This document shows, piece by piece, positions 13,819 through 31,303 of a stretch of DNA of 64,000 nucleotides. The notes under the pieces were generated by a model, which searched no databases, had not been told where the DNA came from, and saw only the letters and a list, made by a program, of their open reading frames with translations. The DNA comes from Spirochaeta lutea. Its GTDB lineage: Bacteria; Spirochaetota; Spirochaetia; DSM-27196; Salinispiraceae. The position numbers and the translations under genes were made by a program. The DNA is taken from positions 209,359 to 273,358 of the forward strand of contig NZ_JNUP01000065.1 of NCBI RefSeq assembly GCF_000758165.1, written 5' to 3'. Position 1 is the first letter of the stretch. The number at the start of each line of letters is the position of its first letter.

Positions 13819-14238
13819 GTGACGATTAAAGAGGTGGCCCAGCGGACCGGTTTATCGGAACACACCCTGCGCTATTATGAGCGGCTAGGGATTATTTCCG
13901 GGGTAAGCCGGTCCGAGTCGGGCTACCGGGATTATTCCGAGCAGGATATCGGGTGGATTGATTTTATTCAGTGCCTGAAGCGTACGGGTATGCCCTTGGA
14001 GGACCTGCGGGAGTTTTCTCAGTACTTGAACTGCGGGCAGCCTTCTGCAGAGGATTACCAGGCGGTCTTGGATATTCTGAATCAGCAGCGCAGCCGGGTA
14101 TTGGATCAGATTGAAGAGCAACGAAAATCCTTGGGGCACATTGAATTTAAACTGTCTCTCTTCAGCGAAAAGAAACAGCGCTCCCTGGAGGAGTCTGGCT
14201 GTGAGGGGCGAATGGTTCCCCCGGGGTCTACTCAATAA
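13819..14238 (+). CDS. MerR family transcriptional regulator
   Basis: A 139-residue regulator with an N-terminal winged helix (TIKEVAQRTGLSEHTLRYYERLG), the family SGYRDYSEQDI segment and a dimerisation coiled coil. It starts at a GTG. The C-terminal metal loop that defines CueR, with its two Cys near residues 112 and 120, is not recognisable; the only cysteines are in YLNCGQ and ESGCEG. The sequence is nearer the AdhR/NmlR-like branch (FIQCLKRTGMPLEDLREF). It could still respond to copper or to thiol-reactive stress. Its last 11 bases overlap the convergent PII-like gene. Confidence 0.85.
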   Translation: MTIKEVAQRTGLSEHTLRYYERLGIISGVSRSESGYRDYSEQDIGWIDFIQCLKRTGMPLEDLREFSQYLNCGQPSAEDYQAVLDILNQQRSRVLDQIEEQRKSLGHIEFKLSLFSEKKQRSLEESGCEGRMVPPGSTQ

Positions 14239-14572
14239 GCCCTTCGGAAAGCGAAAAACTTAGGCTGAGCGGTATGACCGAGAGGGAGATGATATGCTCC
14301 TTCTCGAAGGGTATGTCTGTAAGGCGGAGATTGGCGATGAGTTCCTTGGCGGTTTCCACCCCGGGAATGCGGGCTAATACCAAGAGCTGCTCTCCCGCCC
14401 GTTCCCCACGGTCGCGGAAGAATCCGGTAAAGAGACTAAACTCGCTTTCCAGGCTCTTATCCAGGTTTTCTCCCGAGAGGCAGGAGGCCTGGTTTATGCC
14501 TACACTCTGCAGGGCCAGAAACACATCTTCTTTATAATCGATATCGTTGATTTCTAGGATCATTAACTGCAT
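14228..14572 (-). CDS. Small PII-like protein, antiporter-associated (cassette 1)
   Basis: A 114-residue soluble protein of no named family that I can assign with certainty. Length, predicted alternating strands and helices, and the start MQLMILEIND fit a PII-like ferredoxin fold. It is a clear paralogue of the 115-residue protein at 23085-23432: the shared pattern includes a Val and Ala in the first helix (EDVFLALQSVG against EDVLEAYVEAG) and a central SLFTGF/PLFAGF motif. It is the third gene of a minus-strand operon behind an EIIA-Ntr-like gene and a CPA2 antiporter gene (21-base gap). PII-like proteins often bind nucleotides and control transporters, so it may regulate the antiporter (inference). 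Confidence 0.7.
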   Translation of the reverse strand: MQLMILEINDIDYKEDVFLALQSVGINQASCLSGENLDKSLESEFSLFTGFFRDRGERAGEQLLVLARIPGVETAKELIANLRLTDIPFEKEHIISLSVIPLSLSFSLSEGLIE

Positions 14573-14593
14573 GAATTCCTCCCGTAGATTCCT

Positions 14594-15817
14594 CTATTTT
14601 GTATCCTGATCATGGCTATGGATTTCTCCAGCTTTTCCCAGGGCGAACCGGGTGAGCAGGGGACCGATTATTTCGGTAATGATGGTGGTGAACAGCAGCA
14701 CGTTGATAATCACCGTAGCAAGATCATGGCCGGCCGGACCGAACCGGGGGTTGGTGAACTGCTTGCTGATGGCCAGGGCCAGCGCCAGGGCAACCCCTAC
14801 CTGGGGAAGCAGGGAGAGGCCGATGAGCCCGCGGATTTTCTTGGGTGCCCGGCCGATTATTGCACCCAGGGTAGCCCCGCCGATCTTTCCCAGGGCCCGG
14901 GCGGCGAAGTATACGAGTCCCAAGAGTCCGATTCTGGAGATGAGTCCAAGATTTAGATGGGCCCCCCCCAAGATGAAGAACGCCGCTAAAAAGATGGGGG
15001 TAAGGCTTCCAAGAATACCTTCGCTCTTCTTACTGAGTACCGGGGATGCATTGGCCACGATCATCCCGAATACCATAATGGACAGAAGTTCGGATACATG
15101 GAGGATCTCACTGATTCCCAGGAGACCGAAGATGGCTGCAGCTAACAACAGGGTAATCCAGTCGTTGTTTTTTACCCGTCGGAGAACTGCCACGTACAGG
15201 AACCCGGCTACAAGACCGATGCCCCCGGCCATGAGCAGGGAGAGTACCGCTTTACCCAGCATGTGGCCCCCTGAGAGGGTAGCTCCGGTGAGGTTGGCAG
15301 CTACAAACCCCTCAACAAATACGTAAATAATCAGGGCAACGGCATCGTCAATGCCAACCACCGCCAGGATTGTGGAGGTCAGGGTTCCCTTCGCCTTGTA
15401 TTGCCGGATAACCGCCACGGTGGCTGCCGGCGCGGTAGCCGAGGCAACGGCTGCCAGAAGAAGGGAGGTATTGAGATCCGCACCGATGATCAGGTAGACC
15501 CCGGCGAAGACAACCCCGAAGGCCGCCAAACACTCCAGGACCACAATGCTGAGAATGCTCATGCCCAGGCGCCGGATAACATCGAAACGCAGTTCGCTGC
15601 CTATCAAAAATGCGATAATGCCCAGAGCAACCGTGGAGAGAGGGGAAAGGGCTGTCAGGATTTCTTCATTCAGCAGACGAATGACGGATATGCCCAGGAT
15701 TACACCCAGGAGAACATATCCGGTGACCTCGGGGACCTTGATGGCCGAGGTAAGGACCTTTACCGCGTATGCTGAGGCGAAGAGGGCGGCCAGGTATAGA
15801 AATAGATGCAACTCCAT
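14594..15817 (-). CDS. Monovalent cation/proton antiporter, CPA2 (Kef/NapA-like) family
   Basis: A 407-residue inner-membrane antiporter with about 12 to 13 helices and no C-terminal TrkA-N domain. Family marks are the N-terminal VPEVTGYVLLGVILG block and the ion-binding helix VVGIDDAVALIIY, whose Asp-Asp pair corresponds to the catalytic pair of electrogenic NapA/NhaA-type exchangers. It probably exchanges sodium or potassium for protons. It lies 14 bases after an EIIA-Ntr-like gene and 21 bases before a PII-like gene, all on the minus strand. The absent regulatory domain may be replaced by these two small proteins (inference). The ribosome-binding site GGAGCAG precedes the ATG. Confidence 0.9.
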   Translation of the reverse strand: MELHLFLYLAALFASAYAVKVLTSAIKVPEVTGYVLLGVILGISVIRLLNEEILTALSPLSTVALGIIAFLIGSELRFDVIRRLGMSILSIVVLECLAAFGVVFAGVYLIIGADLNTSLLLAAVASATAPAATVAVIRQYKAKGTLTSTILAVVGIDDAVALIIYVFVEGFVAANLTGATLSGGHMLGKAVLSLLMAGGIGLVAGFLYVAVLRRVKNNDWITLLLAAAIFGLLGISEILHVSELLSIMVFGMIVANASPVLSKKSEGILGSLTPIFLAAFFILGGAHLNLGLISRIGLLGLVYFAARALGKIGGATLGAIIGRAPKKIRGLIGLSLLPQVGVALALALAISKQFTNPRFGPAGHDLATVIINVLLFTTIITEIIGPLLTRFALGKAGEIHSHDQDTK

Positions 15818-15831
15818 GATACTGCTCCGGC

Positions 15832-16278
15832 CTAGAGTTCGGAGAACTCAGCCAGGATGGCCTGGGCATCCGGCGCCTTCAATAGGGCTTCACGTCTGCC
15901 GGCATTTTTTATTACCAGGGTTATTTTTGAAAGGATCTTTAGGTAATCTGACTGTCGGTCAGCGGGACCGCCGATCATGAAAACCAGGCGGACAGGCTGT
16001 TTATCGATGGAATCCCAGTTGACTGCCTCCCGGGTTACCCCGATGAGTACAAAAAAGTCCGCGATGCCGGGGATTTTGGCGTGGGGCACCGCGACCTGGA
16101 GGCCGATTCCGGTGCTCATAATCTGCTCACGCTCCAAGATGGCGGTGCGGAACTGGTCCAGGCCCGGAACCATGTTCATATCCGCAGCGTGGCGGCACAT
16201 GGTTTCGAGAATCTGGGATTTATCTGTTTCGGTTAGAAAAAGGACGGAGTCCGGGGTAAGATACGTACTAATTTGCAT
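15832..16278 (-). CDS. EIIA-Ntr/PtsN-like phosphotransferase domain protein (cassette 1)
   Basis: A 148-residue single-domain protein of the PTS EIIA type-2 family. The phosphorylatable His66 is in VAVPHAKIPG, and the C-terminal half has the VFMIGGPADRQSDYLKILSKI block common to PtsN-like proteins. As a lone EIIA in front of an ion antiporter it is more likely a regulator than a sugar carrier. Known EIIA-Ntr proteins control potassium transport in enterobacteria. It is the first gene of the minus-strand antiporter cassette and is divergent from the chemoreceptor gene. Neither EI nor HPr genes are in the window. Confidence 0.88.
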   Translation of the reverse strand: MQISTYLTPDSVLFLTETDKSQILETMCRHAADMNMVPGLDQFRTAILEREQIMSTGIGLQVAVPHAKIPGIADFFVLIGVTREAVNWDSIDKQPVRLVFMIGGPADRQSDYLKILSKITLVIKNAGRREALLKAPDAQAILAEFSEL

Positions 16279-16390
16279 GGATGACCTGCCTTATTAGGGT
16301 TGTGATAGGATAGCTTTTTACCGATACTTATGTAAATCCCCTTGGGAATAACCGGTTTAGTGTGAGTTCCCATGTTCCAGAGGAGTAGGC

Positions 16391-18433
16391 ATGAAAAGGT
16401 TGGATTTCCGGATCCGGGTGGCGTTAGTAATCGCCTTGGTCGTTGTTGTGAGCCTTATTTATCAGTTGGCTGGGTACGGGGTCATGTGGGCCTTCCTCTC
16501 TAAGGATTTGGGGAGATTGGGCAGCTATCTCCTGGATTCCTTTGATGTGGTTGCCATGGCCACGCCGATTATCCTGATCGTGGTTTTGTTGCTGTTCCGG
16601 CAGATGACTCCTTTGTACAAGGCGGTCAAGAGCATTGAGGCCGGGGACGCTCCGGATGATGCCCTGTATTTCAAGGCGCGAAGCCGGGTCACCCAGATGC
16701 CGAGAACCATCCTGATCGTGAATATCATCGGATACACCATCGGGAGTCTGCTGAATTTCCTCGAGAAGCCCGGGTTCATGGCCACTCCCCAGGGAGTGAT
16801 TGAGTTGCTGCTCAATGTTACCGCCGGGGCGCTGTTCTCCCTGGTACAGATCGGTATGATCAATCGTATTTTGGCTCACCCCCGGCGGATTCTGGGTATA
16901 ACCAGCATCGACCGCAAGAACGGTGAGAAGGAAATGAGTATCTGGACGAAGCAGCTGCTTACTGCGGGTCTACAGATCTCCTACGCCGTATTGTTCATTG
17001 TAAGTACCACCCTTCAGCCCATTATCCGTGATTCCATCTACAGCGAGGTTCAGACCAAGCGGATGGAGGGCACAATTTCCGCCGCCCAGGCCGAGGAAGA
17101 GTACTATCAGCTGGTGAACCGGGAGCTTCTAACCTTGAATCCCCAGCGGGACTATCCCTACGACAGGTCCCCGTCCTCCAACCGTGACTACGCCGGGGTT
17201 TTTCTGCTTTCCTTCTTCCAGGTGTTGGCGGCGGCCATGGTGATTCAGTATCTGGTGTCCCGGGGCGATACGGATGAACTACGGCGGATGAGGCATAGCC
17301 TGCAGCGGTTGAACAATGACGATCAGGGGGATGATGAGCACCTCATTCTGACCAGATACGATGAACTTGGCGAGATCAGCCAGGAGATCAATACCCTTAT
17401 TAGTCAGCAAAAGGAACGGATTGCGCACATTGAGTATGTGAGCGAGGATGTGGCCCAGTCGAGCCAGCAGATGGCCGGGGTTATTTCCCAGGTTTCAGCC
17501 TCCATCAACCAAATTCTGGGTAATATCCAGGAGGTGGATGATGATGCCCGGCACCAGGTGGAGTCGGTTCGACAGACCGGGGATTCCATCAGCCGGATGC
17601 TGAAGGCCTTCGATGAGATTTCCAGTAACGTGGATACCCAGGCTGCCTTCGTGGAGGAGACTTCCAGCGCTATCAACGAGATGGCGGCGAGCATTCAGTC
17701 TGTAGCCAAGGTGACCCAAAATGCCAACCAGGTAGCCTCTGAACTGGATGAGGTAGCCAGGCTGGGATCATCTTCCGTGCGGAACTCTCTACTATCCATT
17801 CAGGAGATAGAGGGGTCCTCAAAAAAAGTAGGGGATATACTCCGGGTCATGACGAAGATTGCTGCTCAGACAAATCTCTTAGCTATGAATGCCGCCATTG
17901 AAGCGGCTCATGCCGGGGCTGCGGGCCGGGGCTTTGCCGTAGTGGCCGAAGAGGTCCGGAACCTGGCTGAAAATTCCCAGGTGAGTGCGAAGGATATTGC
18001 ATCTCAGATCAAGGCGATGCAGGATCTGGTGGCCAACGGGGTTAATTTATCCGGGGAGGCAGGGGATTCTCTGACCAGGATTTCTGAGGATATTGATAAG
18101 ACCACCACCCTGATTAACGAGATTGCCGCCGCAATGAATGAGCAGAGCCAGGGAACAACCCAGATTCTGGAGGCCATGACAAGTCTGGTAAGTTCCACCG
18201 AGAAGATCCGTGAAGAGAGCCAGGCTCAGCATGAACGCTCCCAGGAGATCCGGGAGGCTATCAGCCAGATGGTGGGCAGTTTTGAACAGGTTCATACATC
18301 CATGAATGAACAGGTGCAGGGAAGTCGTGATATTTTGACTGCCGTGGAGAGTCTGAGAAGCGTTGCGGAGAAGAATACCTCCATTATTACCCAGTTGCGA
18401 GGGTTATTTAGCAAGGAGGGCTCCGAGGTTTAG
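16391..18433 (+). CDS. Methyl-accepting chemotaxis protein with six-helix membrane sensor
   Basis: A 680-residue chemoreceptor. Six hydrophobic segments (about residues 8-36, 46-71, 100-122, 134-160, 183-209 and 272-296) replace the usual two helices and periplasmic Cache domain. Only one sizeable extracytoplasmic loop (about 210-270) is seen. A HAMP-like linker leads into a long cytoplasmic coiled coil whose hairpin tip reads [23 protein letters not shown] with [10 protein letters not shown] before it. There is no C-terminal CheR-binding pentapeptide. The ATG at 16391 has GAGGAG ahead. The signal could be a membrane-related cue or one passed on by another membrane protein. It is divergent from the EIIA/antiporter operon. 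Confidence 0.92.
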
Positions 18434-18464
18434 CCGATGGAAGGTGCGTTGATGTGATGATTAC

Positions 18465-18571
18465 CTAGTATGTAAAAGGTTGTACCATTGCACCCCGGCG
18501 GTACCACCCATGGGTGGACGTATAGATTGTCCCGCTATATCCGGTGTCGTTTACAACCTTTTGCGCACTAG
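18465..18571. repeat. 107-bp inverted-repeat-bounded intergenic element, copy B (most complete)
   Basis: The element is bounded by 20-bp inverted repeats that begin and end with CTAG and differ at three positions; their cores are AAAAGGTTGTA (18474-18484) and TACAACCTTTT (18552-18562). The centre holds a perfect 14-bp palindrome, CCACCCATGGGTGG (18504-18517). The right half matches copy A (9418-9460), and the left half resembles copy C (32740 onward). It has no coding capacity. It looks like a MITE or another mobile or structured intergenic repeat. It sits between the convergent chemoreceptor and uracil permease genes. Confidence 0.75.
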
Positions 18572-18594
18572 ATGATGATAAAACAGGAACTGTG

Positions 18595-18631
18595 AACACA
18601 GGCCGGGCAAGGTGACTGCCCGGCCTGTGTT
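18595..18631. terminator. Strong bidirectional hairpin terminator
   Basis: A perfect 15-bp stem (AACACAGGCCGGGCA with TGCCCGGCCTGTGTT) and a seven-base loop lie between the 3' ends of the chemoreceptor and permease genes. On the plus strand TATTG follows the stem. On the minus strand CAGTTCCTGTTTTATC follows. It probably terminates both genes. Confidence 0.8.
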
Positions 18632-18638
18632 ATTGTGA

Positions 18639-20006
18639 TTAGTCTTGATCCACGTAGGCGGTTTCTATTTTGGCCGCTTCTTTGGCCTGCTGAGCCAGGC
18701 GCTCGGCTTCGATTTCCTTTTGTTCTTCCAGGACCTCTTTATCAATGTCCGGGAGCAGAAGGTTGAGGACGATCCCCACCAGGGTAGCCAGGGCGACCCC
18801 GGAGAGCTCGAATTCCAGCCCTTCCCCAGTGGCAAACTTCAAGGCTCCGCCGCCGATACCGATGACGAGAATCACTGAGGAGACAATGAGGTTCCGTTTA
18901 TGGGAGTAGTCCACACCGCTTTCCACCAGGGTCCGGATTCCGGCGCTGGCGATGATCCCGAAGAGCATCATGGTGATGCCTCCCATAACAGGGCTGGGAA
19001 TGGTCTGAATGAGCAGTCCGAACTTATGGAAGAAGGACAGAACCAGGGCAATGACGGCTGCACCGCCCACAACCCAGACGCTGTACACCCGGCTGATGGC
19101 CATTACACCGATGTTTTCGCCGTAGGTGGTGTTCGGGGGGCCGCCGAATAGGGCTGCCACGCTGGTGGCCAGACCATCCCCCAGGAGGGTTCGGTGTAAT
19201 CCCGGTTTTTCATAGATGTCTTTTCCAATGACCCGGCCTATAACCAGGGTATCCCCCAGATGCTCGCTGATGGTTGCCAGGGAGACAATGAGAAATACAC
19301 TGATGGGAATAATATCGAACTTTAGTCCCATGATACTGGGGAGGCTGATCCAGCCACCCTCTTGAACGGCACTGAAATCAATGAGGGCAAAGGCGGGGTT
19401 TACCGAACCCATGATCAGGGTGAAGAGATACCCGCCGACGATGCCGAGGAGAATTGGAATCACCGTAAAAAATCCCTTTAGGAAGATGCTGGAAATAATG
19501 GCGATGCCCAGGGTGACCAGGGCGATGAGGACTGCGGGCATGGAGAACTCACCGTCCAGGTAGAACACCTGGCCCATGGCCACGGGGCTGAGGCTCAATC
19601 CGATGACGATGATCACCGATCCGATGACTACCGGAGGCAAGAGCCGGGACAACCAGGACTTTCCGAAGAGGCGGATGAGGCCAGCAACCAGGGCATAAAA
19701 GATTCCCACCACGAAGGCTGCCCCCAGGGCGTACTCCGGGCCGTAGGCAGGGCTGGTCCCGACGCTGATCAGGGGAGCGATAAAGGCGAAGGACGATCCG
19801 AGATATGCTGGAACCTGGCCGCCGGTAACGGCGATGTAGAGCAGGGTTCCGAGTCCGGATGTAAAAAGTGCCACCGAAGGACTGAATCCCGTTAATAGGG
19901 GGACCAGGACGGTGGCACTGAACATAGCAAATACATGCTGGATACTGAGGGGAATCCACTTAGCCAGGGGCGGCCGCTCGTGGATACCGATGGGTTGGTG
20001 ATGCAT
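18639..20006 (-). CDS. uraA: NCS2 family uracil/xanthine permease (UraA-like)
   Basis: A 455-residue nucleobase:cation symporter with the 14-helix NCS2 core. Family marks include LSIQHVFAMFSATVLVP near the N-terminus, TGGQVPAYLGSSFAFIAP, and GGPPNTTYGENIGVMAIS in helix 10 (the substrate-binding region), followed by PSPVMGG. The NTTYGENIG motif favours uracil over xanthine. I start at ATG 20006, which has GAGGAA seven bases ahead; a GTG at 20018 is in frame. The C-terminal 30 residues are a charged helix (EEQKEIEAERLAQQAKEAA). It is a single-gene unit ending at a strong shared terminator. Confidence 0.92.
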   Translation of the reverse strand: MHHQPIGIHERPPLAKWIPLSIQHVFAMFSATVLVPLLTGFSPSVALFTSGLGTLLYIAVTGGQVPAYLGSSFAFIAPLISVGTSPAYGPEYALGAAFVVGIFYALVAGLIRLFGKSWLSRLLPPVVIGSVIIVIGLSLSPVAMGQVFYLDGEFSMPAVLIALVTLGIAIISSIFLKGFFTVIPILLGIVGGYLFTLIMGSVNPAFALIDFSAVQEGGWISLPSIMGLKFDIIPISVFLIVSLATISEHLGDTLVIGRVIGKDIYEKPGLHRTLLGDGLATSVAALFGGPPNTTYGENIGVMAISRVYSVWVVGGAAVIALVLSFFHKFGLLIQTIPSPVMGGITMMLFGIIASAGIRTLVESGVDYSHKRNLIVSSVILVIGIGGGALKFATGEGLEFELSGVALATLVGIVLNLLLPDIDKEVLEEQKEIEAERLAQQAKEAAKIETAYVDQD

Positions 20007-20057
20007 AGAATTCCTCACTTGTGGTTTTTTTGTGTGTATACCACCAGCCGGGATTCG

Positions 20058-21038
20058 TCAAGGCATTTTTTCTTCGGCCCCGAGTTCGGCCATGGATCCG
20101 GAGACCTCCAGCCCCGCAGCGGTGGATTCGTCCCGGGAGAAGAGGGAACGCCCGCGGGCGGTGTCGGTTAGGGCGACGGAGAGGTGGGCAGCCACACTCT
20201 CTTTTATCGTCCGGACCATGCTTCCCTGGACCGGGGCCGCGAGTTCCTGGCCGTCATCCCGGTGGGCATGTACCTCTAGGAGCCTGGACCGGGTTCGGAT
20301 CTGGATGCGGATATCCTGGGGGAGGATCTCCAGGTGAAGGATTCGTGAACCGAGGTAGCTACCCAGGTGGTAGAACCGGTTCTCGGTGTACAGGTAGCCA
20401 AGAAGGCCGGTAAAGCTGGAGCCCATCCAGGGAATCCGGGCAATGGAGAGCATGAAGCTGGCCTGGGGGTCGGTTGAGAAATTGTTTGCCTGAAGCCATA
20501 TCCAGCTGGATGGGAAGGACCGTCCCCAGTCCTTTTCTATGTAGCCCCGGCCGCCGGTAAAATCCAGGGCGGCATCCCCGTACTGGATGGAGCCCTCAAG
20601 GTCGTGACCGGCGCTCACCAGGCCGTGGTTACACTCCATGGCGGGGACATAGGAGTAAGGCCCCATGATGCCCGGCCGGTAGAGGCTTTTGGGGTAGGGG
20701 ATTCTACTGCGGTAGGTCACCTGTCCCTGGATGGGGGTACCGTCGGGTGTGCTGAGATCTAGACTCATCCCCTGGGGGGAAAACAGGTTCTTCCCGATAC
20801 GCACCCGGTATTCCCGGGGGCTGAGTTCAGCCTGATCCAGGGGGTAGCGGCAATACCATGACGCCCCAAGACTGGTATTGATCTGAACGAAGGCGTGGGA
20901 ATCGGAGCCGAGGGAAATGCCGGGTATGGCCGCCAGGGTCGTCCGACCGTCGGGTGCTACAAGCTTGTTGTACCAGCCCTCAAAGTAATTTTTTTTACGA
21001 AATGAGCCCTGAAAGGCTTCGGAGTTAAACATCTTCAT
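20058..21038 (-). CDS. Tocopherol-cyclase-like (lipocalin-type) protein
   Basis: A 326-residue protein with the N-terminal signature FRKKNYFEGWYNKLVAPDG, characteristic of the tocopherol cyclase family, whose members have a paired lipocalin-like beta barrel. Further family-like blocks are GYIEKDWGRSFPSSWIWLQANNF (residues about 164-187) and many short beta strands. Bacterial members outside phototrophs are uncharacterised and probably bind or modify a hydrophobic compound. There is no signal peptide. The start at 21038 is an ATG. The gene is divergent from the large putative hydrolase at 21091, with 52 bases between, so the two may be co-regulated. Confidence 0.7.
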   Translation of the reverse strand: MKMFNSEAFQGSFRKKNYFEGWYNKLVAPDGRTTLAAIPGISLGSDSHAFVQINTSLGASWYCRYPLDQAELSPREYRVRIGKNLFSPQGMSLDLSTPDGTPIQGQVTYRSRIPYPKSLYRPGIMGPYSYVPAMECNHGLVSAGHDLEGSIQYGDAALDFTGGRGYIEKDWGRSFPSSWIWLQANNFSTDPQASFMLSIARIPWMGSSFTGLLGYLYTENRFYHLGSYLGSRILHLEILPQDIRIQIRTRSRLLEVHAHRDDGQELAAPVQGSMVRTIKESVAAHLSVALTDTARGRSLFSRDESTAAGLEVSGSMAELGAEEKMP

Positions 21039-21090
21039 TTATAGTATTGTAGAATAATTTGGGGATTTTCGGGGGAAAAAAGGAGGTACT

Positions 21091-23025
21091 ATGTCCCAGG
21101 TCTGGTCTTTGCTGATTCTCGGGCTCTTCGGACCCACCCTTGTTACTGCTATTTTGCTCAATACCCTGCTGCTGCAGATCTTTGATATTCTAGGGCTTCA
21201 TACCCTCTGGAACTGGATTCAGATCCGGTTCCGGTTTAATCCTCCCCGACGTAGGGGAACCGCCAGTTCGTTAGCCGGGGTGGTGGACCGGGTTGATCGG
21301 GTGGTCCGGGCCTTTGTAGAAATGGGATTTTCATCCGATCCGGGTAGACGCCGGGTCATGATCCTCAACGGGAGATTCGGCCTGCGGATTGACCACGCCA
21401 CGGCGGTGAATTCCAAGAGCGGCAAGCCGAAGTATGCCATGTACGTTGAGGGTACCCGGTTTGAGATGGGGCGATTCATCGGGGCCTTGGCGGAACCGGA
21501 GCTCTTCGCCATGAGCCGGGATTACGTTGATAATGTGGTCTTTGATTTCATGAACATGCCGAGGCACTCGGTGTTAGGCAGCATCATCGGCGATACGGTG
21601 TTTCGCCTTTCTACCTGGATGGACCGTGATGTCCCCGATGAAATTAGCGCAGAGATCTTCGGTCTCTGGGCAGGAAGCCGGCATCCGGCTTTGCCTGGAG
21701 CTGCCCGGAGGCGGGTACTCATCCGGGACCTGTTTACCCTGAACTACGGGATCGATGTGATTCTATCGTTTGTGTATGCCCAGGTTCAGCCGATTTTGGC
21801 GATCCTGGGAATCAAGATTAAAGAGTATATGCCGCCGGTGCACTGTAATGCCTTTAGCCTGAGCCGGGGGCTTGCGGGGAGTTATGGGGATGGCAGCCCA
21901 GAGGATCCGCGGCCCGGGCATCTCTTCGGCAGGGATTTTATGTTTCCCACCTGTGATGTTTTTGACCAGGTGGCCTGCCATGTGGTGTATAACTTTTTTC
22001 CCGATGACCAGGGAGACCAGGAACGGTTATTGAGCCTCAACGCTCCCGGCATGGTGGGCAGCGTAGTGGCCCTGAACGAGCATGCCCAGATTATGGGTAC
22101 GGACATGGTAAATGGCCGAAACTGCCGGTGGTACAAGCTGGGGGTTAACTCCCTGATGATGGTGCGATGGGCCATGGAGGGTTCGAGGAGCTGGCAGGAT
22201 ACGGTGCGGCGGGTAGCACATACCCCCCGGGCAGTTACCTGGCTCTACCCCTTTGCGGACGGACGCCAGGACCGCGGCGGGGTGATTGAGGCCGGCCGCC
22301 GGGAATCACGGCCCCGTACTATGCTGCGGTACGTGCCTGGTTGGCTGAAGAAGAGCGGGTTACTCCCCGACAATGAGTATGTTGAGGCCAACCCCTCGGG
22401 CCCATGGAACCAAGGTGCGCTGGTTCGGATGGATGACTGGCAGTATCCCCAGGGATACGGTGATTTTAACCGGGGACTCTTTGAGGATTGGCAGCTGGCC
22501 TACCATCCCGAGCGTTTTACGGACCCGGCGGGGATGTTGGTAGATAACCCAAAAGCTCCCGGCCTGCCCCTTGCCTACTATTTCGCCCCCCTCCGGGTAG
22601 CCTGGCCGGGTATGTTCGTGGTTACCAATCTGTTTATAACCCCGGAAATGCGTCTGCTTGCCATGAACGACTGGACCGTTCAGGTGCCCGCGGCCTCGAA
22701 CGAGTACTCGGATTTCCAATGGCGGTATGACGAGCTGAACCGGACCCTGTGCCAGGCCTTGGAGGAGGGGCCGGTATCCTGGGAGAAGGCGTGGCAGTGT
22801 ATCAACTTCCTTCAACCCTATGACGACCGGGGACACAAGACCCGGAACTTCTTCTATTACGGCATACGTCAGGGCCGGGAGCTGCCTCGGGAGGAGATCC
22901 AGGTTGGAGGGAGTGTGAGCCTGGCGGATCTGCACGCTCTGGTAATGAAAACCCGGTACGGCCAGTATGTGGACGAACCGGTTACCCTGGAATTCGGCAG
23001 GATTCTCGCAAGCCTGGACGGGTGA
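21091..23025 (+). CDS. Large membrane-anchored putative Ntn hydrolase (C45/acyltransferase-like)
   Basis: A 644-residue protein, not confidently assigned. An N-terminal hydrophobic helix (residues 5-35) would anchor it. Around residue 252 the sequence VHCNAFSLSRGLAG, then GHLFGRDFMF at about 276-285 and VGSVVALNEHAQIMGTDMVNGRNC at about 322-345, resembles the N-terminal-nucleophile core of the C45/penicillin-V-acylase-like superfamily. In that family the Cys (here Cys252) becomes the nucleophile after self-cleavage and is followed by a GRN-F/W motif. If so, about 250 residues would be released as a propeptide, which is unusually long. A ribosome-binding site GGAGG precedes the ATG. It is divergent from the tocopherol-cyclase-like gene. 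A substrate cannot be named. Confidence 0.5.
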   Translation: MSQVWSLLILGLFGPTLVTAILLNTLLLQIFDILGLHTLWNWIQIRFRFNPPRRRGTASSLAGVVDRVDRVVRAFVEMGFSSDPGRRRVMILNGRFGLRIDHATAVNSKSGKPKYAMYVEGTRFEMGRFIGALAEPELFAMSRDYVDNVVFDFMNMPRHSVLGSIIGDTVFRLSTWMDRDVPDEISAEIFGLWAGSRHPALPGAARRRVLIRDLFTLNYGIDVILSFVYAQVQPILAILGIKIKEYMPPVHCNAFSLSRGLAGSYGDGSPEDPRPGHLFGRDFMFPTCDVFDQVACHVVYNFFPDDQGDQERLLSLNAPGMVGSVVALNEHAQIMGTDMVNGRNCRWYKLGVNSLMMVRWAMEGSRSWQDTVRRVAHTPRAVTWLYPFADGRQDRGGVIEAGRRESRPRTMLRYVPGWLKKSGLLPDNEYVEANPSGPWNQGALVRMDDWQYPQGYGDFNRGLFEDWQLAYHPERFTDPAGMLVDNPKAPGLPLAYYFAPLRVAWPGMFVVTNLFITPEMRLLAMNDWTVQVPAASNEYSDFQWRYDELNRTLCQALEEGPVSWEKAWQCINFLQPYDDRGHKTRNFFYYGIRQGRELPREEIQVGGSVSLADLHALVMKTRYGQYVDEPVTLEFGRILASLDG

Positions 23026-23039
23026 AATAATCATATTCC

Positions 23040-23068
23040 TTGACAGAGCGATACGTGCAACCTACTAT
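23040..23068 (+). promoter_or_regulatory. Near-consensus promoter of the PII-EIIA-Mrp operon
   Basis: TTGACA at 23040-23045, a 17-base spacer and TACTAT at 23063-23068 form an excellent vegetative promoter 17 bases before the ATG of the PII-like gene. The transcript would have a very short leader containing only GGGGAG as ribosome-binding site. Confidence 0.8.
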
Positions 23069-23084
23069 TCCTTCGGGGAGTGCC

Positions 23085-23432
23085 ATGAAGCTGCTGGTTT
23101 TTGTACTGAATAAGGAAGAATTTCTCGAAGATGTGCTGGAAGCCTATGTGGAAGCCGGAGTTGCCGGCGCCACCCTCTTGGACTCCGAGGGAATGGGGCG
23201 TTTTCTTGCCTATGAGGTGCCGCTGTTTGCCGGGTTTAAGGAATTCATGAAGGGCAATAAGCCTTACAATAAGACGATTATCTCGGTAATAAAAAATGAT
23301 GCGGTCATAAGCCGGGTCAAAACCCTGGTAGATCAGGTTGTCGGCGGCCTAGAGAACCCTGGAACAGGAATAATGTTTACCATTCCCGTGGATTGGGCCA
23401 CCGGATTAGTTCCCGAAGACGAAGAGGTTTAA
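23085..23432 (+). CDS. Small PII-like protein, antiporter-associated (cassette 2)
   Basis: A 115-residue soluble protein paralogous to the one at 14228-14572. The start MKLLVFVLNKEEFLEDVLEA, a central EVPLFAGFKEF stretch and a VIKNDAVISRVKTLVDQVV helix fit the beta-alpha-beta layout of PII-like proteins. The segment ENPGTGIMFTIPVD at the C-terminus resembles the ligand-binding end of PII-fold trimers. It is the first gene of the Mrp operon and lies four bases before the EIIA gene. I use ATG 23085 (GGGGAG ahead); an upstream TTG would overlap the promoter. A function as nucleotide-sensing regulator of the antiporter is inferred from fold and context only. Confidence 0.75.
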   Translation: MKLLVFVLNKEEFLEDVLEAYVEAGVAGATLLDSEGMGRFLAYEVPLFAGFKEFMKGNKPYNKTIISVIKNDAVISRVKTLVDQVVGGLENPGTGIMFTIPVDWATGLVPEDEEV

Positions 23433-23436
23433 CCAA

Positions 23437-23895
23437 ATGAGTTTGCTTTGTAAAATGATTTCTCCAGAATGGATTCTTGTGGATGAGGATGCTGAGAATA
23501 AGCAGGATTGTATCAAGAAGCTCATTACAGCATTGCAGGCGAGTGGAGACGTTGCGGATCCGGAGAAGTTGTATTCGGATATCATGGACCGGGAAGCCCT
23601 TTCTTCCACCTCGGTGGGATCCGGGTGTGCTATTCCCCACGCTCACTCCACCGCCATCGGTTGTACGAGGGTTGCAGCCCTGCGTCCTAAGAAACCAATT
23701 GACTTTCAGGGTCCGGACGGGGAGGAAGTGCGGCTTGTGTTTCTCATGGCGGGACCCAAAAAGGATACGGGAATTCACCTGAAGGTTCTCTCTAAGATTG
23801 CCCGACTGCTTCATGATCCGGCCTACCGCAGCAAATTCCTTGAAGCCCCGGATGCGGAATCCTTTTACGCCGTTCTCTGCCAAACGGAGACCTAG
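23437..23895 (+). CDS. EIIA-Ntr/PtsN-like phosphotransferase domain protein (cassette 2)
   Basis: A 152-residue lone EIIA domain. The phosphorylatable His68 lies in GCAIPHAHS, and the block LVFLMAGPKKDTGIHLKVLSKIA matches PtsN-like proteins and the paralogue at 15832-16278. It lies four bases behind the PII-like gene and three bases in front of mnhE, inside an ion-antiporter operon, so a regulatory role in cation homeostasis is more likely than sugar transport (inference from context and from EIIA-Ntr control of potassium systems elsewhere). Confidence 0.88.
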   Translation: MSLLCKMISPEWILVDEDAENKQDCIKKLITALQASGDVADPEKLYSDIMDREALSSTSVGSGCAIPHAHSTAIGCTRVAALRPKKPIDFQGPDGEEVRLVFLMAGPKKDTGIHLKVLSKIARLLHDPAYRSKFLEAPDAESFYAVLCQTET

Positions 23896-23898
23896 GCT

Positions 23899-24411
23899 AT
23901 GCGGACGGAGCAACGATGGCGGGTGACCCGCTTTTTCATTACCAGCGCCGTTCTATACCTTACCTGGCTGATTTTTACCGCTAGTGTTGAACCCTTTTCC
24001 CTGATTGCCGGTGCCGTGGGATCGATATTCGTGGGCTCCCTTACCTATGATGAGTTCATCGCATCCCATGAGGCCTCCCTCAATTCCTTCATGCCCAAGC
24101 CCCTCATGTTGATTCTCTATTTATTTCTGCTGTTGTATTCCTTGTACGCTTCCAGCTTCACACTATTGGGAGCGGTATTCCATAAGCGAATAAATCCTCG
24201 GATCATCCATTTTAGAACAAGAATCAAGTCCGATTTAGGTAGAATGGTTCTGTCTAATTCCATCACCTTCACGCCGGGAACCATCACCATCGACCTGAAT
24301 GATGATCACCTGATTGTCCATTGGCTTTTTTGCAACACATCGAATTCCCGCGCGGCGGGGGAGCAGGTAAAGGGCCGGCTTGAGGGGCTGCTGAGGAGGG
24401 TGTGGCAATGA
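23899..24411 (+). CDS. mnhE: Mrp-type Na+/H+ antiporter subunit E
   Basis: A 170-residue membrane subunit with two or three N-terminal helices and the C-terminal soluble region of MrpE (SNSITFTPGTITIDLNDDHLIVHWL), which is the family hallmark. It belongs to the multisubunit Mrp/Mnh complex that exchanges sodium for protons across the inner membrane. It starts three bases after the EIIA gene and overlaps mnhF by four bases, showing tight coupling. Confidence 0.93.
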   Translation: MRTEQRWRVTRFFITSAVLYLTWLIFTASVEPFSLIAGAVGSIFVGSLTYDEFIASHEASLNSFMPKPLMLILYLFLLLYSLYASSFTLLGAVFHKRINPRIIHFRTRIKSDLGRMVLSNSITFTPGTITIDLNDDHLIVHWLFCNTSNSRAAGEQVKGRLEGLLRRVWQ

Positions 24412-24689
24412 GGGAGTTCATGCTGGAGGCGATGCAGTGGATTCTGGCCGGGGCATCTGCAGCGGTCTTTATTCGCTTGATTATTGGACCGACGGGGGCT
24501 GATCGGCTGGTGGCCCTCAATATTCTTTCCGGTCTGGCACTGGCGTTTTTGGTTACCCGGGGGGTTGCCCAGGGCCGGGCTCTGTACCTGGATGTGGCGT
24601 TGGTTTACGATATTTTCGGATTCCTCGGGTTCCTGGCCATTGCCCGGTTTCTGAAGGATAAGATTTCTGATGAGGACGGTTCCGCCTGA
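24408..24689 (+). CDS. mnhF: Mrp-type Na+/H+ antiporter subunit F
   Basis: A 93-residue three-helix subunit. The family sequence RLIIGPTGADRLVALNIL, followed by ALVYDIFGFLGFLAIARFL, identifies MrpF. I use ATG 24408, which overlaps the mnhE stop as ATGA and has GAGGAGG nine bases ahead; a GTG six bases upstream is possible. The stop overlaps the mnhG start (TGATG). Confidence 0.93.
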   Translation: MREFMLEAMQWILAGASAAVFIRLIIGPTGADRLVALNILSGLALAFLVTRGVAQGRALYLDVALVYDIFGFLGFLAIARFLKDKISDEDGSA

Positions 24690-25141
24690 TGGAAGTAGTA
24701 CGAGAAATTTTCGCTGGTATTGCCTTCACCTTGGCGGGGATTTTTACCCTGGGGGGGATCATCGGGTTGTTTCGGTTTCCGGATGCCTATACCCGCCTTC
24801 AGGCCGGGTCCCTGGCGGGGACTACGGCGGTGATTTCCGTGTTTCTCGGCGCTTTGGCATTGGCCCCCAATTGGGCAGTCGCTGGCAGGATCATCATAAT
24901 CATCATCTTTTTTCTTCTCTCCTCTCCCACCGGCGGGCATATTGTCGCCCGGTTTGCCTGGAACTCTGACCTCCCGGCATGGAAGCCCCGGGACCAGAAG
25001 CGGAGCGGGCCGGAGCGAAAGAAGAAAGCCGGGAAGGAAAGACGAAGGATACAGCTGTGGAGGGCATTCTTCCGCCGGTTTAGGAACCAGCGGGACAATG
25101 CCTCGGATTCTCAGGAAGGAAACACCGAGGGTGAATCATGA
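24689..25141 (+). CDS. mnhG: Mrp-type Na+/H+ antiporter subunit G with basic tail
   Basis: A 150-residue subunit with three helices and the MrpG motif GLFRFPDAYTRLQAGSLAGT and GHIVARFAW. After residue 95 comes a roughly 50-residue cytoplasmic tail rich in Arg and Lys (for example ERKKKAGKERRRIQ) that is longer than in typical MrpG and probably disordered. It overlaps the next gene by four bases. Confidence 0.93.
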   Translation: MEVVREIFAGIAFTLAGIFTLGGIIGLFRFPDAYTRLQAGSLAGTTAVISVFLGALALAPNWAVAGRIIIIIIFFLLSSPTGGHIVARFAWNSDLPAWKPRDQKRSGPERKKKAGKERRRIQLWRAFFRRFRNQRDNASDSQEGNTEGES

Positions 25142-25374
25142 TAATCCTTTTCTTAGGGCTGATCGTCGTACTCTCGGTGTATACCCTCATTTCTCGGAAC
25201 CTGCTGTACGGGGTCATGGCACTTTCGGGGATCAGCCTTGTTTCTGCCCTGCTATTTTACATTCTTCAGGCTCCGGATGTTGCCATTACTGAGGCGGCGG
25301 TGGGTGCCGGGGTTTCAACGGTAATATTTGTTTGGGCAATTAAGGCAACCCAAAAAAGGGGGAAGGATGAGTAA
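25138..25374 (+). CDS. Mrp/Mbh subunit, MrpA C-terminal-type (MbhD/DUF4040-like)
   Basis: A 78-residue, two-to-three-helix protein containing QAPDVAITEAAVGAGVSTVIFVWAI, the conserved block found in the C-terminal part of MrpA and, as a free subunit, in MbhD-like proteins. It therefore supplies the MrpA tail as a separate protein. The large NuoL-like part of MrpA is absent from this operon. It overlaps mnhG by four bases and mnhB by eight bases. Confidence 0.85.
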   Translation: MIILFLGLIVVLSVYTLISRNLLYGVMALSGISLVSALLFYILQAPDVAITEAAVGAGVSTVIFVWAIKATQKRGKDE

Positions 25375-26143
25375 AAACCGTACCCGCGGGGAATCTCCCT
25401 CAAGAATATCGTTTTATATCCAGATAGGCGTTTCTCTGGTTGCGGCTGGAATATTATTGGTTCCCTTGATATTCAGCGATGTCCCCTGGCCCGAGGCCGC
25501 CCGGGATTACCTCCAGGGTTCCGCCCTTGAGGATACCGGCGCCGTAAACACTGTGAGCTCCATCTATCTGGGATACCGGGTGTTTGATACCCTGGGGGAG
25601 ACCATTGTTCTCCTGGTGGCGGTGAGCGGTACAATCAGCATTATCGCCTACAGCGGCTCTGTCTTAGCCAAGGGATTTAATCTGGATGAAGCGAATACCG
25701 TCACTCCGGTGGAGGGGATTCAAGGGAGGCGGCTGCGGACGGCTTTAATTGAGGTGGTAACCGGAAAGCTAGGACCAATAGTCCTGCTTTTCGGGGTCTA
25801 TGTGATGCTTTACGGACATCTTTCACCCGGCGGCGGCTTTCAAGGGGGTGTGGTTATCGCATCGGGGGTGGTGTTTCTATCTCTCGGAGGGCGGCAGGGG
25901 GCTTCTACACGACTGACAGAGCCGAGAGTCCTTGCCGGTCTGGAGGCGGGGGCGTTTTTTATTCTCGTGCTTGCCGGGTTGAGCGGCAGCATTCTGGCCC
26001 AAGGTTTTTTTTCGAATTTTATTTCCGGTCTGGGGCTGCCTGATGTGGCGTTTATCGTGTTTCTCAACACGGTTATCGGGCTGAAGGTTGGCGCAGGCAT
26101 CGGTTTCATGAGCATCGCTATGTTAGGGAGGGTACATGATTGA
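25367..26143 (+). CDS. mnhB: Mrp-type Na+/H+ antiporter subunit B with MbhE-like N-terminal domain
   Basis: A 258-residue fusion-like subunit. The N-terminal half (about 1-100) has YLGYRVFDTLGETIVLLVAVSG, corresponding to MbhE or the far C-terminus of MrpA. The C-terminal half (from about residue 125) has LFGVYVMLYGHLSPGGGFQGGVV, the MrpB signature. This arrangement follows the archaeal-type Mrp/Mbh modules. I use ATG 25367, which overlaps the preceding gene and has GGAAGG ahead. Confidence 0.9.
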   Translation: MSKNRTRGESPSRISFYIQIGVSLVAAGILLVPLIFSDVPWPEAARDYLQGSALEDTGAVNTVSSIYLGYRVFDTLGETIVLLVAVSGTISIIAYSGSVLAKGFNLDEANTVTPVEGIQGRRLRTALIEVVTGKLGPIVLLFGVYVMLYGHLSPGGGFQGGVVIASGVVFLSLGGRQGASTRLTEPRVLAGLEAGAFFILVLAGLSGSILAQGFFSNFISGLGLPDVAFIVFLNTVIGLKVGAGIGFMSIAMLGRVHD

Positions 26144-26483
26144 GCGGATACTGTTGGCATTGATCTTCCTTACGGGATTCACCGCCATCATTGGGAATCG
26201 CAATATCATCAAGAAGGTTTTTGGTCTAACCATTATTAATAACGCTGTCGTACTTCTGTTCATTATTGAAGGATCGGTTATTGGCAGTGATTCCCCGATA
26301 CTGGGAGACGGGGTTCGATCTATCGTGGATCCTGTTCCCCAGGCACTGATGCTCACGGCCATTGTTATTGGAGTGTGCATAACGGCCTTGGCCCTGGCTC
26401 TGGCCTACCGGCTGCATCGGGCAACGGGGTCATTCAACATCGATACCATCTACCAGCGGCTGAATAGTAATGACAATGATTAA
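26136..26483 (+). CDS. mnhC: Mrp-type Na+/H+ antiporter subunit C
   Basis: A 115-residue, three-helix NuoK-like subunit. The conserved region DPVPQALMLTAIVIGVCITALALAL is diagnostic for MrpC. It overlaps mnhB by eight bases and mnhD by 14 bases. Confidence 0.93.
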   Translation: MIERILLALIFLTGFTAIIGNRNIIKKVFGLTIINNAVVLLFIIEGSVIGSDSPILGDGVRSIVDPVPQALMLTAIVIGVCITALALALAYRLHRATGSFNIDTIYQRLNSNDND

Positions 26484-28293
26484 TTCCGATATTGTGTATA
26501 CTCTGGTGGGGCTGCCCCTGCTGGGCTCTGCCTTGGCGCTGCTTTCTAAGGCATTTTGGCCTGGTTCCAAGAACCGGGTTCTTGAGTATGCCGGTGCCTT
26601 CATTGGCCTTGCACTTCCCTGGGCGGTGCTGGTATATACCCTCCCTGATGTCCTAGACGGGCATGTGTACGGGGGGATAATCGGAGGTTGGAGTCCCCAG
26701 GTGGGTATCCAGTTCCGGTTTGACGGCCTTGCCTGGCTGGTGAACCTTATGGGCTTTACCGTGGCCGGAACCGCTTGGATCTACAGCCTCGGAAAGGGCC
26801 CCCGGGGTGCGGGATTCACCTCCGTATTCCTTATTCAGACCGCAGCCCTGGCGGCCACATCCATGACCGCAGATATATTCAACCTCTTTGTTTGTCTAGA
26901 GGTGATGGGAATCGCGTCCTACGTCTTGGTGGCTTCCAGTGAGAAACCTGGGGCGATTCTTGCTTCCTTCTCGTATTTGATGGTGAGCGCCACCGCCATG
27001 GTTTTTTTCCTGATCGGTATATTCGGGCTTTACCGGCTTACCGGGAGCCTGGGATATCAGGATATCGCTTCCTCCCTGGCTGCCCTTCCGGACCACGGAG
27101 GTATAGCCGGGGTGGTATCCATAAGCCTCATTGTTGGTGCCGTGGCTATTAGGGTTGCGATTATGCCGGTGTACGGATGGCTTCCCGATGCCCACGCCCT
27201 GGCTCCTCATAGTATTTCTGCGGTTCTCTCCGGGGTACTCATAAAGACCCCGCTTTTTGCGCTTTCCCGGGTGATTCTACTCATTCCTGCCGGGGCAGCC
27301 GCGGCCCAGCTCATGGGATATGCCGGGGCTGTGACCGCCCTGGCAGCGGTGATTATTGCTCTATCCCAAAGCGATGCCAAACGGCTGTTGGCCTACCATA
27401 GCGTGAGCCAGATCGGGTATGTGGTAACCGCATGGGGGGCAGCCCTCCATGTGGGGCCGGAAACCCCCCAGGGAGCGGCTCTGATGACCGCAGCCTTCCT
27501 CCACGCCCTCTTCCATGCCATGTTCAAGGGGCTGCTCTTTTTAACCATCGGAAATCTCAGCGATTCCGCCGGGGAACGGAACGTGTACCGCCTCAAAGGC
27601 GGTGCAGCCCTGCTTCGTCGCCAGGGAGAAATTCTGCCGGTTACGGCCCTTGCCTTTATGACCGCTGCCCTGGCTATTACCGCCATTCCGCCCATGAACG
27701 GGTATGTGAGCAAAACTGCTCTCTCCTATGCCCTGAAGGGAAGCTGGGAATACTATCTTCTCTTCGCAGCGGGGATCGGAACCATGGCCTCCTTTATCAA
27801 ACTAGGAAAAACCTTCTTCGGCAAACCCGTCGCCGATTCGGCCCAAGGCCAACTTCAGTCCCAAAACCAACCTCATCCCCAGGGCCAAATCCAGGACCGA
27901 AGTGACGACCTGCCCCGGAAGGCCGAGGGATCAAATGGCTCCTCGGGGTTCGTGTTAGTGAGCCAGTCCATCCTCGCCCTGGCCGTTGCCGCTACGGGGA
28001 TTTTCGGTCCTTGGATGTATCGCTTTGTACTGACCATGTTTGCCTCCGGGGCGGGGGAGAACCTGCAGTATGACCCGAGGGGTATGAAGGGGCTGAGCCT
28101 CTACAGTCCCGGGGGTATCCGGAACACTGCGATTATTCTTGCTGCGGGGTTCCTTCTCTATGTTCTCACCAGGACCCGGCCGGGAACCCGGTTGCTGAAG
28201 CGGATCAGGGACCGCCAGCGGGGCTTTCACGGCCTCTTAACATCCTTTACCCTGGGAACCCTGGCTATTGCGCTGTGGATGTACCTGAGGTAG
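26470..28293 (+). CDS. mnhD: Mrp-type Na+/H+ antiporter subunit D (NuoN-like)
   Basis: A 607-residue antiporter-like subunit with about 14 helices. The conserved membrane Glu is Glu144 in FVCLEVMGIASYVLV, with further charged residues in SQSDAKRLLAYHSVSQIGY and LFHAMFKGLLFL, as in the proton channels of complex I. It is the only such large subunit in the operon, since full-length MrpA is missing. Between helices near residues 455-495 it has a hydrophilic insert rich in Gln, Ser and Pro (QGQLQSQNQPHPQGQ) that is unusual for the family. An ATG six bases downstream is an alternative start. The 3' end overlaps the convergent ankyrin gene by 29 bases. Confidence 0.94.
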   Translation: MTMINSDIVYTLVGLPLLGSALALLSKAFWPGSKNRVLEYAGAFIGLALPWAVLVYTLPDVLDGHVYGGIIGGWSPQVGIQFRFDGLAWLVNLMGFTVAGTAWIYSLGKGPRGAGFTSVFLIQTAALAATSMTADIFNLFVCLEVMGIASYVLVASSEKPGAILASFSYLMVSATAMVFFLIGIFGLYRLTGSLGYQDIASSLAALPDHGGIAGVVSISLIVGAVAIRVAIMPVYGWLPDAHALAPHSISAVLSGVLIKTPLFALSRVILLIPAGAAAAQLMGYAGAVTALAAVIIALSQSDAKRLLAYHSVSQIGYVVTAWGAALHVGPETPQGAALMTAAFLHALFHAMFKGLLFLTIGNLSDSAGERNVYRLKGGAALLRRQGEILPVTALAFMTAALAITAIPPMNGYVSKTALSYALKGSWEYYLLFAAGIGTMASFIKLGKTFFGKPVADSAQGQLQSQNQPHPQGQIQDRSDDLPRKAEGSNGSSGFVLVSQSILALAVAATGIFGPWMYRFVLTMFASGAGENLQYDPRGMKGLSLYSPGGIRNTAIILAAGFLLYVLTRTRPGTRLLKRIRDRQRGFHGLLTSFTLGTLAIALWMYLR

Positions 28294-31200: not shown

Positions 31201-31303
31201 TTAACAGCAGGAAGGTAAGCTGGCGGGAAATCCTGGGGACGGAACCGGGGGTAGGGCCGGACCGAGATATGTTCGAAGAAGGGAGTGATTGGCGTACATT
31301 CAT
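28265..31303 (-). CDS. Ankyrin-repeat lipoprotein
   Basis: A 1012-residue protein with an N-terminal cytoplasmic stub, a hydrophobic segment (about residues 29-45) and a lipobox-like IVLSC at about residues 42-46, so it is probably a lipoprotein facing the periplasm or outer surface. Residues about 75-370 are helical with no repeats that I recognise. Residues about 370-610 hold eight or so ankyrin repeats (for example LKLLLEAGFDPNVKNSYNYNALFRAT), with further repeats around 745-830 (VLLDQGADPDLPGYKDYTPI). The last 80 residues look like a beta domain. It overlaps the upstream PTS IIC gene by four bases (ATGA), so the two are co-translated. The partner protein or ligand is unknown. Confidence 0.85.
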   Translation of the reverse strand: MNVRQSLPSSNISRSGPTPGSVPRISRQLTFLLLILIFLSAIVLSCATPSPTQTPQAPILEQPESRWLHDALSRRQAQSDPAPREPMVQLGILASGAVNLANNRDPATLSFGDDPEKNASHAKAVLEPVWEVFSRQDLLSTLDNLAYTKGFPGLYRRVLDILLDHPQEMGQPNRFLEEGFWDSYLEEQPDAASDIGALDFILRNHSFMTLSSFSVFELGRLSSLVRWGYAAGYLTEEETRLLMEDIGLSLAATPWDFPLLAHAQLVGIGILYRGSNNLQVATTTRGIEVWRLLQGGEWQAEYWDAAREQARTLLETGERSLPDFFPRFTRDLPPLPEGIKVSQDIQALFNPDEKPESLIPYYRKDFDLYHAIANNDLSTVDSLLRRYQYIDAPAVDGYSWTHHAVPNSQALKLLLEAGFDPNVKNSYNYNALFRATQEKNLESMRLLIEHGAEVQVSHARNSSTPLTVSISRDFLEGLKLLLKHGADPNAGYINDDPPLGYAIARRDTEFALALLQYGADPAQKDSDGWPPLHLAVQYGSPTLVQAVIDRGVDPDSRAANGTPAIITAAASDQLENVQVLIKAGADPDLRSNGGYPVLHTYINSKHFDIWDARDSDTRYDPVENFAPDLERYIELFPQQRSLTAGDKRRSLIWFLRAYASEERFIEEVEYLKQEAPELLENIPPGNQYSIAHSLIRRGLRQAFQEFAPHISAQGMAHRLENGYHILYYALTDPDSYWAADVLLDQGADPDLPGYKDYTPIIAVLDDGQIMKAMELVERGADINQLNTYTDEPLFTTFLTNLKQADIPLEEKKEFIFRAMDHGAELLNYQDYPRQYWHMPYFQFFSGDFHEIMPDVARYYLDTGKRLGSQFVEEQILTGSNMVLYPDHLIALTRVHQEGDDSAGYLHWKDQVRVDYSVDWEPSQEDQAVILQVEIHSDDLDTETMVLLDSSRRPEVLPDTLPIRITIPLKSIGKTSNGTLILSKTLVFEAAGQEYLARITVEKAPTSGTSTAQ

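Follow-up and report, generated by a model that had tools for sequence, protein, structure and literature searches.

Two loci in the 64,000-nucleotide stretch of Spirochaeta lutea DNA analysed here (the window; contig NZ_JNUP01000065.1, positions 209,359 to 273,358) each encode a cation/proton antiporter together with an EIIA protein of the phosphotransferase system (PTS) and a small PII-like protein (Table 1). The genes of locus 1 follow one another in the order EIIA, antiporter and PII-like protein, with intergenic gaps of 14 and 21 bp, and those of locus 2 in the order PII-like protein, EIIA and Mrp genes (23899-28293), which lie 4 and 3 bp apart. An earlier note, made from the sequence alone, had described these genes as a duplicated control cassette attached to two unrelated antiporters; its gene positions, strands and gene order were borne out, and it had placed the phospho-histidines correctly, at His66 of the locus 1 EIIA and His68 of the locus 2 EIIA. 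The small proteins of the two loci are related, as the note had stated: the EIIA pair shows 32% identity over 103 aa (E = 3e-19), and the PII-like pair 33% identity over 51 aa, the first 51 residues (E = 5e-8), with a profile-profile probability of 96% over 95 columns.

Table 1. Genes of the two antiporter loci, in window positions.
Feature	Position	Strand	Length, matches and remarks
Locus 1 EIIA	15832..16278	minus	148 aa, phospho-His66; PF00359 9e-30; first gene of the three-gene cluster
Locus 1 CPA-type monovalent cation/proton antiporter	14594..15817	minus	407 aa; PF00999 1.2e-34; GIDDA (DD) motif
Locus 1 PII-like protein	14228..14572	minus	114 aa; divergent, without glycine loop
Locus 2 PII-like protein	23085..23432	plus	115 aa; Pfam P-II 1.6e-4
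Locus 2 EIIA	23437..23895	plus	152 aa, phospho-His68; PF00359 5e-33; TIGR00848 104 bits
MrpE	23899..24411	plus	PF01899 1.5e-31
MrpF	24402..24689	plus	PF04066 9e-15
MrpG	24689..25141	plus	PF03334 2e-19
MbhD-like subunit, counterpart of part of the MrpA C-terminus	25138..25374	plus	PF13244 1.8e-20
MbhE-like N-terminus and MrpB (MnhB)	25328..26143	plus	PF20501 1.2e-4 (below its cut-off); PF04039 1.6e-18
MrpC	26136..26483	plus	PF00420 3e-21
MrpD, sole NuoL/M/N-type ion-translocating subunit of the operon	26470..28293	plus	PF00361 3e-43

Single-sequence searches covering 247 genomes of the phylum (Spirochaetota) showed that 26 genomes have relatives of the locus 2 PII-like protein and 8 have relatives of the locus 1 PII-like protein, and a profile of all PII-like types, searched in 393 genomes of the phylum, matched 60 genomes and 42 of 168 genera. 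We read 62 PII-like loci, both window loci included, which come from related genomes and are not independent draws. EIIA adjoined or was fused to the PII-like protein at 60 of the 62 loci, and an antiporter adjoined at 55 (24 Mrp and 31 of the cation/proton antiporter, CPA, type); the co-occurrence elsewhere on which the cassette idea of the earlier note depended was thus strongly positive. Among these loci were 24 with PII-like, EIIA and Mrp genes, 10 with the three genes EIIA, CPA antiporter and PII-like protein, and 19 in which an EIIA-PII fusion stood next to a CPA antiporter, the fusion measuring about 270-280 aa, with EIIA at the N-terminus and the PII-like part at the C-terminus. Because the fusions are present in many genera, and several of them on complete single-contig genomes, assembly errors were rejected as their source. 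Direct fusions of EIIA to CPA antiporters were also found, at L190, at L072 and twice in the S. lutea genome. At least three unlike antiporter groups are joined to the module, namely Mrp and several CPA subfamilies that are about 27-36% identical. One of the 62 loci (L203) appears frame-broken. Both an Mrp-type and a CPA-type locus are present in six genomes (S. lutea, G003, G327, G371, G377 and G387), and the pairing of loci seen in the window thus recurs.

The Mrp-type trio is also present beyond Spirochaetota. Named genomes were scanned with the locus 2 type, which yielded 165 relatives; of the best 80, which were kept, nearly all had the order PII-like protein, EIIA and Mrp. The record names comprise Spirochaetes, Aerophobetes, Fermentibacteria, Aegiribacteria, Chitinispirillum, UASB270 and a deltaproteobacterial metagenome-assembled genome; most Mrp-type records are metagenome-assembled, and single taxonomic placements may be wrong. 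The locus 2 PII-like family is near-identical across several phyla. Among the 55 Mrp-type loci with sufficient flank, EIIA was present at 54 and Mrp at 51, and only 37 of 1485 locus pairs (2.5%) had any upstream homologue in common; because the upstream genes are unrelated in this way, chance or residual synteny was rejected as the cause of the linkage. Two variants were seen, a reverse-order fusion (PII-EIIA) inside an Mrp operon (L113) and an Mrp operon with a PII-like gene whose EIIA is attached to a CPA antiporter at the operon's far end (L072).

The assignment of the small proteins to PII differs in strength between the two loci. The locus 2 protein was recognized by sequence, its Pfam P-II score of 22.4 bits (E = 1.6e-4) lying below the cut-off of 25, but the locus 1 protein had no match in Pfam, NCBIfam or PHROG, so that the PII-like call of the earlier note held at sequence level for one of its two proteins. 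The predicted model of the locus 2 protein (mean pLDDT 83.5) gave only PII proteins among the Foldseek matches listed, and in VIA-align it was superposed on Herbaspirillum PII with Z 10.6 (rmsd 2.5 A over 85 residues), on SbtB with Z about 10 and on AmtB-bound GlnK with Z 10.2. The locus 2 protein can thus be assigned with confidence a predicted PII fold, beta-alpha-beta-beta-alpha-beta with a T-loop region. The model of the locus 1 protein (pLDDT 75), partly guided by locus 2 relatives, gave only PII and PII-like proteins among the matches listed, but at Z about 8-9.3. Compared with canonical PII profiles, for which the set consisted of Escherichia coli GlnB and GlnK and two proteins from loci in the analysis, the locus 2 protein reached a probability of 91.6%, and direct profile comparison of the locus 1 protein with canonical PII gave no significant match; the latter is counted as PII because it is homologous to the locus 2 family. 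The locus 2 family retains two B-loop glycines (G93 and G95) and a GxGR at the base of the T-loop, and the T-loop region itself is a different, strongly conserved segment, YEVPLFAxFKxFMKGNKPYNKT.

Both EIIA proteins passed the PF00359 cut-off of 27 with 104 and 114.5 bits. The earlier label of EIIA-Ntr proved too specific, since neither protein reached the NCBIfam PtsN cut-off of 138.7 (58 and 69 bits) and both scored higher as fructose-type EIIA (TIGR00848), the locus 2 EIIA slightly above that cut-off. All 61 complete cassette EIIAs retain the phospho-histidine. Of the 40 cassette-bearing genomes tested, 39 have EI; the S. lutea genome has three HPr and three EI matches. At the level of sequence, the trio is conserved together, EIIA and the PII-like domain are often one protein, and the phospho-histidine is kept in genomes that bear EI and, in S. 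lutea, also HPr. The sole tested genome without an EI match (G364) is one of the two whose PII-like locus (L207 or L208) lacks EIIA. A paired loss of EI and cassette EIIA was considered and is only hinted at, for G364 has neither, but G254, also without cassette EIIA, has EI; both genomes retain other EIIAs.

The S. lutea genome has eight EIIA domains: those of the two window loci, two CPA fusions, one SulP-STAS fusion, one CBS fusion that adjoins a CitMHS/ArsB-type permease, one diadenylate cyclase fusion and one in a sugar PTS operon. Only one of the eight lies in a sugar PTS operon, so that EIIA in this genome serves mainly in ion transport, in line with how the two window loci are read below. 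The four domains outside the window that are tied to ion or anion transporters (CPA twice, SulP-STAS and CBS) lie at G000:C69:81417-81845 (L001), G000:C63:202352-202723 (L008), G000:C38:2872-3276 (L006) and G000:C69:288992-289405 (L007).

The locus 1 antiporter is of the CPA type, passing PF00999 (Na_H_Exchanger) with 120 bits against a cut-off of 26.2, and its DD and R..GK motifs are common to all eight relatives of the same type. Its earlier naming as CPA2 stands as regards the CPA type, with the GIDDA motif, but the subfamily label rests on a weak match to TIGR00932 (29.8 bits, far below the cut-off of 238). At locus 2, the description as a whole Mrp operon was inexact: the operon has no MrpA with a NuoL-like core and a single Proton_antipo_M protein, and the closest solved chain to MrpD is 6cfw_H, subunit H of the Pyrococcus furiosus membrane-bound hydrogenase (MBH). 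Judged by its predicted subunits, the locus 2 antiporter is an MBH-like Mrp module, incomplete with respect to MrpA-G, in which the MbhD-like and MbhE-like pieces represent the C-terminus of MrpA. It matches the MBH-type Mrp module in its subunit set (MbhD, MbhE and MrpB-G) but differs from it in having no hydrogenase genes after the operon within the window and in having PII-like and EIIA genes before it.

Locus 2 is immediately preceded, on its own strand, by a gene for a 644-aa protein with no significant Pfam family (21091-23025, plus), which does not adjoin the cassette in the related genome G003. The minus strand beyond locus 2 encodes a protein of 1012 aa that has numerous ankyrin repeats and matches DUF1266 (28265-31303) and, close by, a lone galactitol-type PTS permease, EIIC-GAT (31300-32664).

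The EIIA tree comprised 74 rows with few alignment columns, and many of its forks are open, so that only the larger groups are trustworthy. In this tree, the cassettes group by antiporter type: the EIIAs of the three-gene CPA loci form a supported clade (100/97) that includes two antiporter-less pairs, most EIIA-PII fusions form a separate clade (97/86), and the Mrp-type EIIAs lie apart. A recent duplication of the cassette within the genome was rejected, as the locus 1 EIIA belongs to the CPA-type clade and that of locus 2 lies with the Mrp-type EIIAs. Because the EIIA tree sorts by antiporter type, the window loci are read as two separate lineages of long standing that have each stayed with their own antiporter, with no sign of free swapping. 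The word duplicated in the earlier note is therefore not supported, and of its control module on varied antiporters the variety holds but portability is not supported. Its observation was thus confirmed and is more general than the sequence alone could tell, and its interpretation is partly supported. Within the Mrp type, mean identity is 69% for the PII-like protein versus 39% for its EIIA. The far higher conservation of the PII-like protein suggests that its partner is fixed, for instance the Mrp complex, and that EIIA may be the freer input.

Considering these results, we think it reasonably probable that the cation/proton antiporter of each locus has a dedicated cytoplasmic control unit of EIIA and PII-like domains, with antiport set by the phosphorylation state of EIIA. 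Regulation of antiport by the pair is inferred from gene linkage, the fusions and the kept histidine. In the proposed scenario, HPr~P from the PTS would phosphorylate EIIA, which would thus report the phosphoenolpyruvate (PEP)/pyruvate and sugar-uptake state. The PII-like domain would dock on the antiporter, as GlnK does on AmtB and SbtB on SbtA, and a small ligand, binding to the domain itself, may act as a gate. Depending on whether EIIA is phosphorylated, the unit would hold the antiporter back or release it, and the proton or sodium gradient would be spent on Na+, K+ and pH control only when carbon and energy permit.

Several points weigh against this scenario. Of the ligand set of canonical nucleotide-binding PII proteins (T83, G87, D88, G89, K90, R101 and R103), the locus 2 protein aligns only at two glycines; T83, D88, K90 and R101 are replaced in its family, R103 lies outside the alignment, and the end part is arginine-free. 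The locus 1 family has no glycine loop. Because of these losses in both families, ligand sensing is doubtful, and with it the earlier note's view that the pair reads energy or nucleotide state. AmtB and SbtA are trimers, which Mrp and CPA proteins are not known to be. Six of the 62 loci have EIIA and a PII-like protein with no antiporter within the stretch read, and two (L207 and L208) have a PII-like protein and a CPA antiporter without EIIA. The correlation of PII and EIIA distances (r = 0.61, with none of 2000 permutations as high) speaks for the scenario, but shared ancestry is uncorrected in this comparison and could alone produce such a correlation. One of the six antiporter-less pairs (L210:4747-7145) lies downstream of an MgtE Mg2+ transporter gene.

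The conservation of the Mrp-type PII-like protein relative to its EIIA, which would fit a surface fixed by a complex partner, and the loss of most ATP ligands in the locus 2 protein could also be explained if the PII-like protein and EIIA were accessory or assembly subunits, serving stability, membrane insertion or complex assembly with little signalling. We regard this as rather unlikely, as the phospho-histidine found without exception in the complete cassette EIIAs and the presence of EI in nearly all genomes tested point to phospho-signalling, and CPA antiporters elsewhere generally function as single proteins. Less likely again is that the unit controls expression or another target, such as a kinase, a K+ channel or an enzyme, and that the antiporter is co-transcribed owing to a common role in salt or pH stress. 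The antiporter-less loci and the DNA-binding-type EIIA proteins near some loci (e.g. L183) would agree with another target, but the antiporter stands next to the pair at the great majority of loci while gene order varies by type, and elsewhere EIIA is fused directly to CPA antiporters.

Given that PstA is a PII-like receptor of cyclic di-AMP (c-di-AMP) (PMC4475381), that 39 of the 40 cassette-bearing genomes have a diadenylate cyclase (DAC) gene and that an EIIA-DAC fusion is encoded by S. lutea, the PII-like protein might instead be a c-di-AMP receptor with the antiporters as c-di-AMP targets and EIIA adding PTS input, but DAC is in any case widespread among bacteria (11 of 14 control genomes have it) and we consider this improbable. 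The EIIA-DAC protein (G000:C61:259203-260960; L005:106-1938, minus) is about 610 aa long, with EIIA first and the DAC domain at the end, and is possibly a PTS-controlled c-di-AMP synthase, judged from its domains. Other cassette-bearing genomes have weaker DAC matches, in proteins of similar length (448-474 aa).

We return to the proposed control of antiport by a cytoplasmic EIIA and PII-like unit. The trio is probably a widespread and apparently undescribed tie of ion exchange to a sugar-phosphate energy signal. No description of the PII-like/EIIA/antiporter combination was found in the open-access literature, where absence is weak evidence, and no regulation of Mrp by a PII-like or PTS protein was found there. 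More tentatively, and with somewhat more doubt than conviction, we suggest a widespread, undescribed two-input control in which a new PII subfamily, altered in its ligand site, and EIIA, separate or fused, jointly act on unrelated antiporters (Mrp and several CPA groups) and join the PEP state and a second signal, possibly non-nucleotide or c-di-AMP, to Na+, K+ and pH homeostasis. Post-translational on/off switching of Mrp and CPA antiporters in bacteria is largely an open question. If the proposal is true, it offers a direct handle on antiport, one histidine and one small protein to mutate, adds a new PII subfamily and brings the ion gradients of a whole phylum, and not only sugars, under PTS control.

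For each half of the unit there are precedents in transporter control, namely GlnK-AmtB, SbtB-SbtA and the EIIA-fused LacS (PMC10710835). SbtB, likewise PII-like, has its gene next to that of a sodium-coupled transporter and acts on this transporter by binding it directly (PMC10710835), and the predicted fold of the locus 2 protein matches it (Z about 10), with a structural-match identity of only 14-20%. However, SbtB-SbtA has no EIIA, SbtA is not an antiporter, and SbtB binds AMP, cAMP and c-di-AMP. GlnK-AmtB is alike in the PII fold and in gene linkage with a membrane transporter, but sequence similarity is weak, and the locus 2 family does not retain most of the canonical ATP ligands or the uridylylation segment of the T-loop. 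PtsN (EIIA-Ntr), which controls potassium transport, is alike as a lone EIIA with an intact phospho-histidine and a tie to cation transport, and the nearest solved structures are PtsN; the cassette EIIAs differ from it in their better match to the fructose type and in lying in an antiporter operon, not in the rpoN region. In LacS, a PTS phospho-domain is likewise attached to a non-PTS secondary transporter (PMC10710835), but the EIIA is of the glucose type, the transport is of lactose and galactose, and there is no PII-like partner. We thus judge the trio to be a variation on known transporter control, as in GlnK-AmtB, SbtB-SbtA and EIIA-fused LacS, and not a new type of system.

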